Below the pieces are notes generated by a model that saw nothing but the letters and a program-made list of their open reading frames with translations, had not been told where the DNA came from and made no database searches. Position numbers and translations under genes: made by a program. Below are positions 1,429 to 18,323 of a stretch of DNA of 22,124 nucleotides, piece after piece. The first letter of the stretch is position 1; each line of letters starts with the position of its first letter. Source of the stretch: a virus. The stretch lies in the IMG/VR virus record IMGVR_UViG_3300038714_000240, positions 1 to 22,124 of that record; one strand, given 5' to 3'.

Positions 1429-1748
1429 GTTGTAATCTGTGCAATCTTAGCCATTGAGTTAATACAGCCTAAAGCTACGTTTAATTGATTGCTGTTTCTG
1501 GCCTCTTTTTGTAGGGTGGAAAGCTGGCTTAAAATGTCCGCGGTAAATTGCCTTCTGTCAATGTCAAAATCTTTCTTGAGAATGATACGGGCGTCTTGGA
1601 TGTACTGCTCTGTCTGTCTTAGCTTCAGTCCCCACTCAGCCGCGGTATATTTTATGATTTCTGAGCGCGTTACACCACGTGCAAGAAACGCTGCAATCTT
1701 GAAAGTTCTATATTCTTTTTCTGACTGTGTAGCCTTCTTTTTTTTCAC
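1425..1748 (-). CDS. terS: Probable terminase small subunit (HTH protein)
   Basis: This 107-residue basic, helical protein has an N-terminal helix-turn-helix (about 28-53, VTRSEIIKYTAAEWGLKLRQTEQYI) followed by a helical region (about 60-105) that would serve for oligomerisation. Position directly upstream of terL, with an ATGA overlap, supports assignment as the small terminase that recognises the packaging site. The start is GTG; its G is the last base of the TAG stop of the oxygenase gene, another sign of tight coupling. Small terminases diverge quickly, so the call relies on HTH plus position rather than on a signature. An unrelated DNA-binding protein is possible but less likely. Confidence 0.75.
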   Translation of the reverse strand: MKKKKATQSEKEYRTFKIAAFLARGVTRSEIIKYTAAEWGLKLRQTEQYIQDARIILKKDFDIDRRQFTADILSQLSTLQKEARNSNQLNVALGCINSMAKIAQITT

Positions 1749-2533
1749 TATTTTTCTAGATTGTGAAAGGAATCAAGAGCGTACCAAACGTGAGAGTTTC
1801 GATAGCCTCCCTGATGTGTAGGGATAATCGGTGTTACTCCGTGCCTATTACGCCAAGCTGGATATACCAATAATGAGTTATCGGTTTGGTCAAACGTGGC
1901 ATTGTAATCAGGTACGTGTAAGTTACCTCCCTTACTGTTACGTCTTTTAGTAATAATCATATTTATAGCACCTTTTACATTGGCGTGGTCTTGATGAACT
2001 GGTGCGGATATGTTGCAATTCGAGATAGTAGAACTGAAATTATTAGCGAAACGCCAGTTATCAGGTATTCTTTGCTTAATTTTGAGTAAGTGATTTTCAG
2101 CAACAGTTGGAATATATTTTTTTACTATTTCAAAAGATTTGATACCAGCTGCATACATTGCTTTTACGAAAATATTAGCAGACTTAACTGAATGAACAGA
2201 TGACCTAGAGGCGTATGGCCTTCTCATGTGTGGTTTAGGTGGACATGAACCCAAGATAGTTGAATACTGCAATACTTCAGCTTTTTTATTATGTAAGCCG
2301 CTAGACCTTTTCATTTCAGATTTAGGTACCCGCTTAGTGTGTATTTCTCTGTCAGCTATATTCACAAGGTTCTGTAAATCGTCTGGCAAAGTTTTTATAA
2401 ACAAACCCACAGGAATGCCATCTGGGTCTATCAGAATGCAATCTTCAAAAATATTAGGCTCAAAACCGCCTACACTATCTCCAATCTTCAAAGGAGAAGT
2501 TACTGGTTTTAATATTAGCTCAGGTAGTTTCAT
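1748..2533 (-). CDS. TET/JBP-type 2-oxoglutarate/Fe(II) oxygenase, candidate DNA-base hydroxylase
   Basis: This 261-residue protein has all ligands of a double-stranded beta-helix dioxygenase. The iron-binding H180-Q-D182 lies in PVHQDHANVKGA, the distal His H231 in RHGVTPI, and a probable 2-oxoglutarate Arg R245 in GGYRNSHVWYAL. The context (HxDxxNxKG, then GGNLHVPDY, then DNSLLVY, then HGVTPI, then YR) is the pattern I know from phage TET/JBP-family proteins, which hydroxylate the 5-methyl of thymine or 5-methylcytosine. About 70 N-terminal residues before the KRSSG segment are unassigned. It overlaps the FkbM gene by ATGA and abuts terS. No cytosine-5 methyltransferase is visible, so the substrate base is open. 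A 2OG enzyme acting on protein or a small molecule is a less likely alternative. Confidence 0.8.
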   Translation of the reverse strand: MKLPELILKPVTSPLKIGDSVGGFEPNIFEDCILIDPDGIPVGLFIKTLPDDLQNLVNIADREIHTKRVPKSEMKRSSGLHNKKAEVLQYSTILGSCPPKPHMRRPYASRSSVHSVKSANIFVKAMYAAGIKSFEIVKKYIPTVAENHLLKIKQRIPDNWRFANNFSSTISNCNISAPVHQDHANVKGAINMIITKRRNSKGGNLHVPDYNATFDQTDNSLLVYPAWRNRHGVTPIIPTHQGGYRNSHVWYALDSFHNLEK

Positions 2534-3231
2534 CTTTTAAAACAATAGACCATAATACATGGCGGGAACCAGCTTTCACCCCACATATTTATATCTCTCT
2601 CCTCATAGTGGATAGTTTTATATGGTGCTTCAACTTTATACTTTAGCTTTTGCTTTTCTATAACCTTCCATATCTTTGGTAGCATTGGGTCAATATCAAA
2701 ACTCCATTCATAAACCAGTTTATTAAAATCGCTTTTTGTATGGGTCAATATAGGAATCTCTGCGCCTTCTATATCCATCTTGCAGTTATCAGCTAATACA
2801 GCTTGTTCATCAAAGTTGAGACAAGGTACTCTTATAGCCTTGTTACTTTTCTTTTTCATTATGGTATTGCGCCATACATTACCATTTTGAGCTATTGATA
2901 GAGTTGTATCTTTCCTAAAATCATGCACTAAAGCAGCTTGTTTAACTGTTATTGCATTCTGAAAGCCATTTAATTTTGCATTTTTTTCGATTAAATCGCA
3001 GTTAAATGGGTCAGGCTCGTATGTAATCACGCTTGCACCTTTTGATGCTGCTAATAGTGAGAATGCACCCACGTTACCACCGCAATCGAGCCAAGTTTCA
3101 TTATTTAGAACTTTCATACCTTTTTTTAGGTACGATTGATTGGAAAGTACTTCTATAAAAGTCTTAATATCAGAGTAACCTTCTCTGTAGAAGAACTTAA
3201 CTCCGTTTAGCGAAGTTTTAGTTAACTTCAT
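2530..3231 (-). CDS. FkbM-family SAM-dependent methyltransferase
   Basis: This is a class I methyltransferase of 233 residues. SAM motif I is WLDCGGNVGAF (47-57), the acidic motif II is ITYEPDP (69-75), and the FkbM hallmark KMDIEGAE is at 151-158. FkbM enzymes usually O-methylate hydroxyls of sugars or polyketides. The C-terminus has an unusual WFPPCIMVYC segment (221-230). The ATG touches the ParB stop (TAATG), and its TGA overlaps the oxygenase ATG, so it is translated as a unit with both. Its neighbour makes hydroxyl groups, so a hydroxymethyl base is an attractive substrate, but this is inference. Modification of a virion or host glycan is the alternative. Confidence 0.85.
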   Translation of the reverse strand: MKLTKTSLNGVKFFYREGYSDIKTFIEVLSNQSYLKKGMKVLNNETWLDCGGNVGAFSLLAASKGASVITYEPDPFNCDLIEKNAKLNGFQNAITVKQAALVHDFRKDTTLSIAQNGNVWRNTIMKKKSNKAIRVPCLNFDEQAVLADNCKMDIEGAEIPILTHTKSDFNKLVYEWSFDIDPMLPKIWKVIEKQKLKYKVEAPYKTIHYEERDINMWGESWFPPCIMVYCFKR

Positions 3232-3848
3232 TAGCTCAACACTTTTAGCGCGTTTACTAGCTCTTGGCCTATGTATATTCCTTTTTTTCTTGCTTCTGCT
3301 ACTACTTCTTTTGCCTCTTCATAATCTTCTGGTCTAAACTCTATCTGTATTGCCTTCATTACATCATTAGCTAGTTCGCTGGTAGGGTCGTCAAAATCTT
3401 CTAGTGATCCGTAGTCTGGCTCATCTGCAAAGGTCGGTATATCATCGCCCCAGCCTAAAACAGATAAATCAAAACCATTTTCCATGAGTCCTTCTAGTTC
3501 ATGTTTTAATATGTCATCATCCCAACTAGAGTTTAAGGCCAGTTGATTATCTGCAATTATGTAAGCTTTACGCTGATCTGGTGTTAAATGTGAAAGCGTG
3601 ATAGTAGGAACTGTCTCTAGTCCAATCTTTTTTGCAGCTGCAATACGACCATGTCCACAAACAACATTACCCATATCATCAATTAGTACAGGATTAGTAA
3701 ACCCAAACTCTTGTAGTGAGATTGCTAATCTTTCTATTTGAACATCACTATGTACTCTAGGATTATTTTTATAAAGCGTTAAATCTATTATTCTTGATTG
3801 TTTTATATCCTCTGGTGAGAATATCGGTAAGTCTGGTGTTGTGGTCAT
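3231..3848 (-). CDS. ParB-like nuclease-domain protein (free-standing)
   Basis: This 205-residue protein has a ParB/Srx-type N-terminal domain: a LYKNNPRVHSD segment (25-35), GFTNPVLID (49-57), the signature GHGR (65-68) and TPDQRKAYIIADNQLALNSSWD (89-110). In phages and mobile elements this domain is commonly fused to an N4/N6 DNA methylase. Here no methylase follows, only an acidic linker and a helical tail. The ATG at 3848 is chosen because it overlaps the stop of the upstream 51-residue ORF (ATGA). A GTG at 3872 with an AAAGAG upstream is an alternative that would add 8 residues. Its place before the FkbM and oxygenase genes suggests a DNA-targeting role in the same system. Confidence 0.85.
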   Translation of the reverse strand: MTTTPDLPIFSPEDIKQSRIIDLTLYKNNPRVHSDVQIERLAISLQEFGFTNPVLIDDMGNVVCGHGRIAAAKKIGLETVPTITLSHLTPDQRKAYIIADNQLALNSSWDDDILKHELEGLMENGFDLSVLGWGDDIPTFADEPDYGSLEDFDDPTSELANDVMKAIQIEFRPEDYEEAKEVVAEARKKGIYIGQELVNALKVLS

Positions 3849-4000
3849 AGCGAGATTGGTAACTGTCCACACTTTAGCTCTTTTTTAGACAGGTACACTT
3901 CTTTAGGTCTTGGCTGTAACCATAGCCGCTTTCCGTTTAGGATTCTATAGTTGCATTTTTGCAAAGGGTCATAGACGAGGTAATCTTTAGGTTTTTTCAA
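3845..4000 (-). CDS. Small conserved-looking protein, 51 residues, unknown function
   Basis: The translation begins at a TTG (4000-3998) with KKPKDYLVYDPLQ and ends KKELKCGQLPISL. It is basic, has two cysteines, and shows no signal peptide or membrane segment. Its TGA overlaps the ATG of the ParB gene as ATGA, the same junction used elsewhere in this operon, which is the main reason to believe it. No ATG is in frame and no Shine-Dalgarno is seen. The frame stays open a little further upstream to a TAA, with an ATT codon near its beginning, so the real start could be upstream, or a frameshift could be present. I do not recognise a family. Confidence 0.5.
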   Translation of the reverse strand: MKKPKDYLVYDPLQKCNYRILNGKRLWLQPRPKEVYLSKKELKCGQLPISL

Positions 4001-4720: not shown

Positions 4721-5488
4721 TTAAAAGGGTTGATTACTTGCTTTGTTTGCAAGCATAGGATTTAATCTTGACTTAGTTTGGCGCTTGCGCAACTCTAAAA
4801 ACTGTTCATATTGTCCTTTGCTAATCCATCTGTGACAATCAGGGAATTGTGGTACCCATTCTGCCTTTCTGATTTTCTTAATTCTTGCATCAATATCTGC
4901 CTGTAAACAATCTGGTAATTTCTCTTTAGTTTCTTTATCTAATTTTTGCCATTCAGTAAAAGCTGGTTTTTTAGATTGACTAATACTTTTTTCACAATTC
5001 ATTTCGGTGTACATTTTCCAAAAAAGTTCGAAATCTTTTGTATATTTATTCTTTTTAGTTTTTTGTTTTAGTTTAACTTGTTCTAGTTCGGGTTCATGAG
5101 ATACACCACCCCTAGTTGCTGAGATACACTGGGGTAGTTTATCTGGTGTACTAGTTGCTGAGATGGACTGCGGTTCACTACTGGATAATTCGGGTGTTGG
5201 GACTCTGCATTCATGCCAAACTGTAACCCGATATGCGTTAGTCTTTTGGCCGTGTTCATCGGTTCTAGAAACTTTCTGTAACCAGCCAAGAGAAACTAAT
5301 TGTTCAACAGTGTGAATTACTTTGGTTCTACACATACCCGCATCTTTAGAAATGGTGCTATAACTAGGCCATATATTCGGGTAGTAGCTTTGCAGCGTCC
5401 ACAATACCGCTAACTGGTGTGGGCTGATTCTTCCTTTCAAAGCAGTAGGCAAAGATACGAAGGGTGTATTTTCTGGAATAAAACTCAT
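4721..5488 (-). CDS. Replication initiator-like protein (HTH_36 / lambda O type)
   Basis: In 255 residues, the N-terminal half (about 20-92) is a winged-helix domain of the HTH_36 type: SPHQLAVLWTLQSYYPNIWPS, then STISKDAGMCRTKVIHTVEQL, then a wing GWLQKVSRTDEHGQKTNAYRV. A low-complexity linker (about 95-145) follows, and then a C-terminal domain rich in W, K and R (about 150-240) like those of phage O-type initiators. Such proteins bind origin repeats and recruit the host helicase. The DNA encoding the linker holds repeats next to an AT-rich tract, as in lambda O. The start lies only 5 bases from the divergent rusA start, with no Shine-Dalgarno, so its promoter must sit inside rusA. A transcriptional regulator with the same fold is the alternative. 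Confidence 0.75.
   Translation of the reverse strand: MSFIPENTPFVSLPTALKGRISPHQLAVLWTLQSYYPNIWPSYSTISKDAGMCRTKVIHTVEQLVSLGWLQKVSRTDEHGQKTNAYRVTVWHECRVPTPELSSSEPQSISATSTPDKLPQCISATRGGVSHEPELEQVKLKQKTKKNKYTKDFELFWKMYTEMNCEKSISQSKKPAFTEWQKLDKETKEKLPDCLQADIDARIKKIRKAEWVPQFPDCHRWISKGQYEQFLELRKRQTKSRLNPMLANKASNQPF
5029..5168. repeat. Candidate replication origin: iteron-like repeats plus AT-rich tract
   Basis: Inside the initiator gene, CTAGTTGCTGAGAT occurs at 5112-5125 and again exactly at 5151-5164. GAGATACAC occurs at 5098-5106 and 5121-5129, and TACACC (5102-5107) is mirrored by GGTGTA (5145-5150). Adjacent, about 5029-5082 is almost pure A+T with long T runs. Iterons beside an AT-rich unwinding tract, in the linker-coding part of an O-like gene, is the layout of lambda ori. 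There are only two full repeats and a partial one, so this is a candidate. Confidence 0.5.
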
Positions 5489-5493
5489 TTTTT

Positions 5494-5937
5494 ATGAAAT
5501 ATGTAATTACTGTTGAAGGTATTGAAGCTGCACCACAGGGCAGTAAAAAGCACGTTGGAAACGGAATAATGGTTGAGGTATGTAAAAGGGTAGGGACATG
5601 GAAAGAAGCAGTTGGGAGGGAAGCAAGAAAAGTTGTGAAGGAAATAATTATTGAACCAGTTCACGTTGAATTAGTTTTCTGGTTTCGTAGGCCAGTATCT
5701 CATTTAAACGCGAATGGAGAGCCTAAGCAATCAGCGCCTAAATATCCAAATAGGAGACAAGGGGATATAGACAAACTATGTCGTAGCACATTAGATGCTT
5801 TGACATTATCAGCGATTGCTGACGATTCGCAAGTGGTAAGTTTGCATGCTCGAAAATATTATTGCAATAAAAAAGAGACCCTAGAGCCTCATTCATTAAT
5901 AACGATACAAACAGTTATAGGGTCGGGGGATAAGTAA
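5494..5937 (+). CDS. rusA: RusA-family Holliday-junction resolvase
   Basis: This 147-residue endonuclease resolves four-way junctions during phage recombination or before packaging. The family signature is clear: GDIDKLCRSTLDAL (90-103) with acidic residues D91, D93 and D101, then IADDSQVV (108-115). The N-terminus (ITVEGIEAAPQGS) also fits the family's opening beta strand and glycine turn. Length is slightly above the roughly 120 residues of E. coli RusA. It is the only rightward gene between 1 and 8394 and sits head to head with the initiator, 5 bases apart. There is no good Shine-Dalgarno, so the transcript is either leaderless-like or starts inside the initiator gene. Confidence 0.9.
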   Translation: MKYVITVEGIEAAPQGSKKHVGNGIMVEVCKRVGTWKEAVGREARKVVKEIIIEPVHVELVFWFRRPVSHLNANGEPKQSAPKYPNRRQGDIDKLCRSTLDALTLSAIADDSQVVSLHARKYYCNKKETLEPHSLITIQTVIGSGDK

Positions 5938-17051: not shown

Positions 17052-18323
17052 TTACCCTGCTTCGAGGGCTGTGACTTTTGAGGATAATTCTTGTACAGCT
17101 TTTACTAATATTGGAACAAATTTTCCGTAAGATGCTTCTAATTTATCTGGATTAGTTTTATAAACAGCACCAATATAGTCATTTTTATCACCTAATACAG
17201 CGTCTATTTCTTGAGCTACAAAACCAAGTTCTGTTTTTCCATTGTTATCACTAGGTTCACGCATTGCCCAAGTAAATTTTCTTGGTCTAAGTGCATTTAT
17301 TATATCAAGACCATCTTCTGAATCAACAATATCTGTCTTATCTCTTTCATCAGAGAGTGCACTTATTGTCTGAACCTGACATCTGATAGCTGTAATACTT
17401 GAATTTCCTAAAGTGACTTCATTTGTAGCGGTGGCACTAGAAGGGTCTGCTTGATAACCTAGTGAAGTGCAGTTTGAGCCAGTTGTCATAACATCACCCG
17501 CTAATGAACCCAAGGCAGTGTTATTAAATCCAGTAGAATTATCTGTTAAGGCATTATAACCGATTCCTGTATTATTATCAGCTGTAGAATTAGCGTCTAA
17601 TGCGCCAACACCTACTGCGGTTCCATTCACACCAGTAGTGTTTATTGCTAATGAGTTATAACCAAAAGCAGTATTGTTATTGGCTGTTGTATTAGCCCCT
17701 AAACTTGCGTGGCCAACAGCTGTGTTAGATGAACCACTGTCATTTGCATCAAGAGCAAAATCACCCATAGCAACATTTAGTTCGCCAGTGGTGTTTAATC
17801 CTAAAGTGTCAACACCAATAGCAATGTTGTCATTTCCAGACACATTTTTATCTAAAGCCTGTGATCCTAAAGCTGTATTTCTAACTCCAATAGTATTTTT
17901 TTCAAGAGCCGATTTTCCAAGTGCTGTACAATTTGTCCCTGATGTTAAATCGGTTAGGGTACTATGCCCAATAGCAGTGTTATTTGTGCCAGTAACCGCA
18001 GCATCTAAAGCACTTACTCCAAGAACTGTATTACTAGAAACAGAGTTTGCACCTTTACCAATATTTACTGAATTTATTGTTCCATCTACAGGAAAAGCAG
18101 GAGCACCACTTGTTGTAAATAAATTTATAAAAGCACTATTACCTTCATTCCTCATCTTCATCAAACTATTATTTGTATCAAAAAATAACATTCCAGCCGC
18201 AGGCGAACTTGGGTCACTTGTACCTTGGTTGTTTGTTAATATCGCTTGTAAAATAATATTTAACTCAGCTCTCACGTTGGCTCCCGTGGAGTTAGCTACG
18301 TCGTAGTCTGGTGCTTGTGCCAT
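17052..18323 (-). CDS. Tail fibre with YadA-like roll and S74 self-cleaving chaperone
   Basis: The protein has 423 residues. The N-terminus (1-70, MAQAPDYDVANSTGANVRAEL...) is the virion-attachment type I know from marine phage fibres. Residues 98-301 hold twelve 17-residue repeats (consensus NTAxGxxALxxNxxGxN) like the left-handed roll of YadA-type trimeric adhesins. The C-terminal 100 residues form a peptidase S74 intramolecular chaperone: LSDERDKTD with probable nucleophile S324 and K329 five residues on, then LRPRKFTW, then ELGFVAQEI. The chaperone would drive trimerisation and cut itself off before S324. This is the likely receptor-binding fibre, directly after the tail-tip gene. Confidence 0.85.
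   Translation of the reverse strand: MAQAPDYDVANSTGANVRAELNIILQAILTNNQGTSDPSSPAAGMLFFDTNNSLMKMRNEGNSAFINLFTTSGAPAFPVDGTINSVNIGKGANSVSSNTVLGVSALDAAVTGTNNTAIGHSTLTDLTSGTNCTALGKSALEKNTIGVRNTALGSQALDKNVSGNDNIAIGVDTLGLNTTGELNVAMGDFALDANDSGSSNTAVGHASLGANTTANNNTAFGYNSLAINTTGVNGTAVGVGALDANSTADNNTGIGYNALTDNSTGFNNTALGSLAGDVMTTGSNCTSLGYQADPSSATATNEVTLGNSSITAIRCQVQTISALSDERDKTDIVDSEDGLDIINALRPRKFTWAMREPSDNNGKTELGFVAQEIDAVLGDKNDYIGAVYKTNPDKLEASYGKFVPILVKAVQELSSKVTALEAG
17421..18032 (-). repeat. Twelve tandem 51-bp units coding 17-residue repeats
   Basis: In the fibre, an N, C or G followed by T/I/V and ending in G five residues on recurs at residues 98, 115, 132, 149, 166, 183, 200, 217, 234, 251, 268 and 285: exactly 17 apart, with no insertion. 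DNA copies have diverged, so recent expansion is not obvious. Confidence 0.85.

Follow-up and report, generated by a model that had tools for sequence, protein, structure and literature searches.

In the genomes of Gordonia phage CaiB and Rhodococcus phage Tonitrus, genes for a ParB protein, a TET/JBP oxygenase, a pyrophosphorylase-like protein and a kinase precede the terminase (PMC9302106, PMC11955845). Here we examined a comparable block in a 22,124-nucleotide stretch of viral DNA (IMG/VR record IMGVR_UViG_3300038714_000240, hereafter the window), which is a 22-kb fragment of a marine siphophage (G000). As in the window, the clusters of CaiB, Tonitrus and Mycobacterium phage LilMcDreamy begin with ParB, carry TET/JBP as the second or third gene, and form a block with short overlaps upstream of the terminase (PMC9302106, PMC11955845). 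They differ in what accompanies the oxygenase: in the actinophages, TET is followed by an amino acid:DNA transferase (ADDT; all three phages) and a P-loop kinase (CaiB and Tonitrus), whereas the window has a single FkbM-family methyltransferase gene between ParB and TET, and its TET is ~26–29% identical to theirs. ADDT was not found in 21 FkbM records, in a search whose control gave no match either.

Two further kinds of system resemble the cassette in part. Phage TET/C5-methyltransferase systems of the Burke type (Burke et al. 2021, cited in PMC11404850) likewise hold a TET/JBP gene among clustered phage genes for complex base modification, but most of the records analysed here are without a C5-methyltransferase. 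In T-even phages, hydroxymethyl pyrimidines in DNA are the acceptors of transferases, as they would be in the cassette, and the TET-associated glycosyltransferase (TAGT, PF20691), which in T6 attaches a second glucose to glucosylated 5hmC, is an alternative to FkbM in the cassettes described below (PMC13216743). In T-even phages 5hmC is already made at the nucleotide level, ahead of replication, whereas the cassette would oxidise bases within DNA; a thymidylate-synthase-fold hydroxymethylase was found in 0 of 18 records, and pre-replicative hydroxymethylation was rejected on that ground.

A first-pass annotation of the window, made from the sequence alone, knew of no characterised system with exactly this trio of genes, a statement to which two refinements apply. 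The layout has been described in actinophages, and the trio occurs in cultured phages (MED4-117, MED4-184/P-HS2 and HTVC112P), where TET is mislabelled. In the papers searched, we found neither a pairing of TET with FkbM nor decorators exchanged one for one; the surveys of Iyer 2013, Burke 2021 and Lee 2022 may mention them. The plan of ParB, TET, decorator and terminase is thus already known from actinophages, and the FkbM branch and the swapping of slot genes look like a new variation on it.

Gene order and junctions in the window

The window is close to Cyanophage MED4-117 and to Prochlorococcus phages MED4-184 and P-HS2, with which it shares its gene order and an oxygenase of 98% identity. 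Its minus strand reads ParB, FkbM, TET, a 107-aa gene and the terminase large subunit (TerL), with neighbours overlapping by 1 or 4 nt. The first gene encodes a ParB_N-domain protein (3231–3848; 205 aa from the ATG at 3848, or 213 aa from a GTG at 3872), the second, which is the exchangeable slot gene, an FkbM-family methyltransferase (2530–3231; 233 aa), and the third a TET/JBP-family 2-oxoglutarate/Fe(II) oxygenase (1748–2533; 261 aa), all three lying where the first-pass annotation had put them. That annotation described the junctions as ATGA or TAATG, which holds for ParB/FkbM (TAATG, 1-nt overlap), FkbM/TET (ATGA, 4 nt) and the 107-aa gene/TerL (ATGA); the junction between TET and the 107-aa gene is instead TAGTG, with a GTG start. 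A gene is indeed present at 1425–1748, where terS had been named, but its 107-aa product had no Pfam match and only an unnamed PHROG (34910, unknown), so terminase small subunit is a name by position. In locus L042, a Terminase_2 protein occupies the equivalent place. TerL itself (85–1428) matched Pfam Terminase_6C (1.5e-8) and Terminase_6N (7.9e-7).

From the overlaps, we infer that the cassette genes would be co-translated. A promoter scan returned fewer sites than were found in shuffles. The order of the cassette cannot be put down to chance, because it was found again in isolated phages and in scores of contigs from metagenomes. The cassette stays whole next to unrelated terminases (L042, L054, L074 and L078). 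Just upstream of the cassette, a RusA-type Holliday-junction resolvase (5494–5937, plus strand) is divergent from an O-like replication initiator (4721–5488). Farther along the window, a tail-fibre-like protein (17052–18323) has, by eye, repeated N-T-A-x-G-x-x-A-L units and a C-terminus resembling an intramolecular chaperone.

Families of the cassette proteins

We assigned the oxygenase to TET/JBP by profile, invariant motif and predicted fold. Against Pfam Tet_JBP, the window protein scored 25.7 bits (E 7.6e-6), which is below the gathering score of 34.9, but all 26 aligned relatives matched the model (E ≤ 0.01, best 1.3e-12), no other model matched broadly, and one relative (L119, in G011) passed the cut-off. 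The HxD, H and R residues that had been read as TET/JBP-like are H180 and D182 (H180-Q-D182 iron-ligand motif, codons at 1988–1996), H231 (third iron ligand, 1841–1843) and R245 (expected 2-oxoglutarate contact, 1799–1801), all on the minus strand and all invariant in the alignment of 26 sequences. An AlphaFold2 model (mean pLDDT 86.9) has the TET-type double-stranded beta-helix. When this model was searched with Foldseek, the 26 best PDB matches were all TET/JBP structures (CcTet, CMD1, TET2 and NgTET1; E 5e-11 to 3e-8), with FTO, AlkB/AlkBH3 and prolyl hydroxylases, including PHD2, ranking under them. The first-pass annotation had named best matches outside TET/JBP, for example to prolyl hydroxylase-like families, as what would speak against its assignment, and the outcome favoured that assignment. 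On sequence and model, the protein is proposed as a candidate hydroxylase of 5-methylpyrimidine in DNA.

Several database records label such oxygenases queuine tRNA-ribosyltransferase (NC_020857, NC_020847, NC_051582, NC_022061 and NC_022331), an identity that profile and fold contradict; the label seems to be a misannotation spreading via PHROG 6059. We discounted hits of the TET profile to TAL effectors and LacI as weak, scattered or lying outside the catalytic part of the protein. Two distant TET relatives turned up in a scan of bacterial genomes, which was uninformative about hosts.

The slot gene of the window matched Pfam Methyltransf_21 above cut-off (4.1e-11; 43.7 bits against 22.7); 27 of 27 relatives also match this model, and the SAM motif (D49-x-G-G-N-x-G) and K151MDIEGAE are conserved. 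The AlphaFold model (pLDDT 87.8) has a class I methyltransferase fold, whose neighbours are mostly RNA-base methyltransferases (such as Trm5, TYW2 and RlmK); since many folds tie (Z 13–15), the fold does not tell O-, N- and C-methylation apart. Among 32 relatives, there was no invariant cysteine (every well-conserved one is replaced in some) and the PC motif was not conserved (P136 kept in 22, C137 in 29). A C5-methyltransferase identity was rejected for want of an invariant cysteine in these relatives. Allowing for contig ends, ParB preceded and TET followed FkbM in 80 of 80 FkbM-query loci. FkbM is part of the TET system, and a chance-carried cell-surface sugar methyltransferase was discarded as a candidate, the subfamily never having been seen apart from ParB and TET in these 80 loci.

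The first gene product fell just below the Pfam ParB_N cut-off (3.3e-5; 24.3 bits against 26.3), and its PHROG matches were to ParB-like and DNA-methyltransferase families. Of the 169 loci, 160 had a recognisable ParB upstream of TET; the other nine comprise five contig-end cuts, three actinophages (with annotated, divergent ParB) and L317. Unchanged where the slot varies, the ParB-domain protein probably binds DNA or a nucleotide and guides the enzymes or holds them in check.

The slot between ParB and the oxygenase

From IMG/VR we collected proteins related to the oxygenase or to FkbM, which gave 169 distinct oxygenase loci. The slot held FkbM in 93 of them and TAGT in 56, with Pfam matches above cut-off for the TAGT slot genes; across the 169 loci of this TET lineage, the two never occurred together. 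An amino acid:DNA transferase set was found in three slots, the several-gene slots being L283, L311 and L335. In L283, ADDT scored 42.1 bits (cut-off 26.2) and is accompanied by a P-loop kinase-like gene, a GNAT gene and an amidotransferase-like gene. Further transferase-like slot genes were TAGT by Pfam in L291 and L298 and without a Pfam match in L299 and L326, and some of the remaining loci (e.g. L025 and L047) had empty slots.

We then placed the slot contents on a tree of 100 TETs, built by a quick method that leaves fine branching uncertain. On its well-supported branches, the slot label must have changed at least 11 times for FkbM and at least 12 times for TAGT. Slot genes differ even between oxygenases that are 96.6% identical (L294 with FkbM versus L298 with TAGT) or 92.3% identical (L044 versus L076), and TETs of 93.9% identity accompany an ADDT set in L311 and TAGT in L329. 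In the DNA of such sister pairs, similarity ends at the ParB stop and returns at the TET start (± ~20 bases), with none between. Slot exchange is therefore recent and clean.

Because FkbM is swapped one-for-one with TAGT and with ADDT sets, we favour reading it as an interchangeable decorator of putative TET-made hydroxymethyl bases. The second step that had been suggested for FkbM is in this way backed by the neighbourhood survey. Counting against the decorator model, L025 and L047, which lack FkbM, retain TET without a slot decorator.

Eight loci (L013, L014, L015, L018, L020, L031, L058 and L095) carry 190–290 bp of AT-rich short repeats between the FkbM stop and the TET start (for example L014:2659–2859), with the repeat units TTTTACACC and GAGTAAAT. 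This stretch, which takes the place of the 4-bp FkbM/TET overlap, lies precisely on an edge of the slot; both motifs are confined to the FkbM-TET gap of these loci and are absent from the cassette of the window. The repeats are possibly a recombination or binding site.

A second TET lineage was found in Pelagibacter phage HTVC112P, where ParB (gp17), TET/JBP (gp18; Tet_JBP 1.1e-29) and FkbM (gp19) are consecutive. All three are adjacent, as in the window, but the order is ParB-TET-FkbM, the TET is very distant and the FkbM is ~30% identical. TET likewise had ParB and FkbM as neighbours in most of 36 further metagenomic loci of this lineage. The gp18 gene (MN698246.1, L349:3094–4002) is annotated 'DnaJ chaperone / putative SNF2 DNA repair protein'; it is a TET/JBP oxygenase. 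In L373 (1964–3360), FkbM lies beside TAGT after TET, the sole case found with both decorators, which suggests that the sugar is methylated or that the two caps are alternatives. TET clusters in L374 (1587–3120) and L379 (4897–6667) contain TAGT together with, respectively, a cytidylyltransferase/mannose-isomerase fusion and a HAD/APH-like phosphotransferase fusion; these fusion proteins may make the sugar donor.

Candidate chemistry and its alternatives

The proposal of a candidate DNA hypermodification system, with which the first-pass annotation began, is supported by the fold matches of TET and by the neighbourhood survey; the modification itself we infer. We regard it as reasonably probable that the cassette hypermodifies DNA at the polynucleotide level, with hydroxylation by TET followed by an O-methyl cap from FkbM. 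Judging from family and fold, TET/JBP would first hydroxylate the 5-methyl of a base already in the phage DNA, likeliest thymine, to give 5-hydroxymethyluracil. FkbM would then put the methyl of SAM on that hydroxyl, yielding 5-(methoxymethyl)-deoxyuridine; here slot exchange is what is seen and the chemistry is predicted. The methyl cap would stand where relatives, using the enzyme in their own slot, would attach a sugar or an amino acid. Coupling to the terminase could time the modification before or at packaging, and escape from host nucleases would be the likely benefit.

Alternatively, the target of FkbM could be something different from the hydroxyl made by TET, namely a nitrogen of the ring, another base position or an added sugar. 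Its closest folds, the RNA base methyltransferases, would fit such a target, and the adjacent FkbM and TAGT of L373 mean that a sugar could be the acceptor. We nonetheless consider this unlikely. TAGT or GT2 glycosyltransferases were found in 0 of 21 FkbM records, which leaves FkbM without a recognisable phage-made sugar as acceptor; one-for-one replacement by enzymes that load hydroxymethyl groups points to the same acceptor for FkbM; and FkbM-family enzymes with known activity are mainly O-methyltransferases. The simplest reading is that FkbM would methylate the oxygen of the hydroxymethyl group directly.

The same cassette might instead operate on cytosine, with a host or phage C5-methyltransferase making 5mC, TET converting it to 5hmC and FkbM producing 5-methoxymethylcytosine. 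Other phage TETs, those of the Burke type, reportedly oxidise 5mC from a co-encoded C5-methyltransferase, and such a gene was found in 5 of 35 TET records. In each of these, however, it is at least 4 kb from TET, and no C5-cytosine methyltransferase was found in the other 30, which include the isolates MED4-117 and MED4-184, or in the 22-kb window. ADDT with its helper enzymes belongs to thymidine hypermodification, and it fills the same slot in near relatives. Phage annotation also places ADDT-type genes in thymidine hypermodification (PMC11955845). ADDT-linked and FkbM-linked TETs are 82–86% identical and should for that reason share a substrate; the window TET is only 53% identical to an ADDT-linked TET, so that for the window thymine is extended by homology. 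Given this kinship, the mostly missing C5-methyltransferase and the pairing of TET with ADDT and a kinase in the actinophage relatives, thymine is favoured over 5mC as the probable substrate, and we think a cytosine route quite improbable.

It is very doubtful that the cassette is not for DNA at all, TET and FkbM acting on RNA or protein, or being accessory genes that came to lie by the terminase through chance. The DNA-modifying role in these phages is a predicted one, which leaves this explanation some room, but the slot partners TAGT and ADDT are DNA-modifying families and the block is kept intact by unrelated terminases. Least credible is an FkbM that works upstream of TET as an unrecognised C5-cytosine methyltransferase supplying 5mC: FkbM does precede TET in the operon and has the uracil-C5 methyltransferases RumA/TrmA among its fold neighbours, but it has neither an invariant cysteine nor a conserved P136-C137 pair in 32 relatives, and the persistence of TET where TAGT or ADDT replaces FkbM is hard to square with an obligate supplier.

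Returning to the O-methyl cap, we offer as a tentative proposal, plausible and short of probable, that the DNA of marine cyanophages and pelagiphages contains an unreported base, 5-(methoxymethyl)-2'-deoxyuridine or the equivalent cytosine derivative, which TET would form on the polymer by oxidation and FkbM by O-methylation, and that the decorators cleanly swapped between phages transfer methyl groups, sugars or amino acids, with the result that close relatives would differ in DNA chemistry. If this is true, FkbM would represent a novel type of DNA-modifying enzyme, possibly a DNA hydroxymethyl O-methyltransferase. Phages of abundant ocean bacteria would then alter their DNA chemistry by swapping one gene at a fixed place, and near-identical phage pairs could show which host defences each modification beats.
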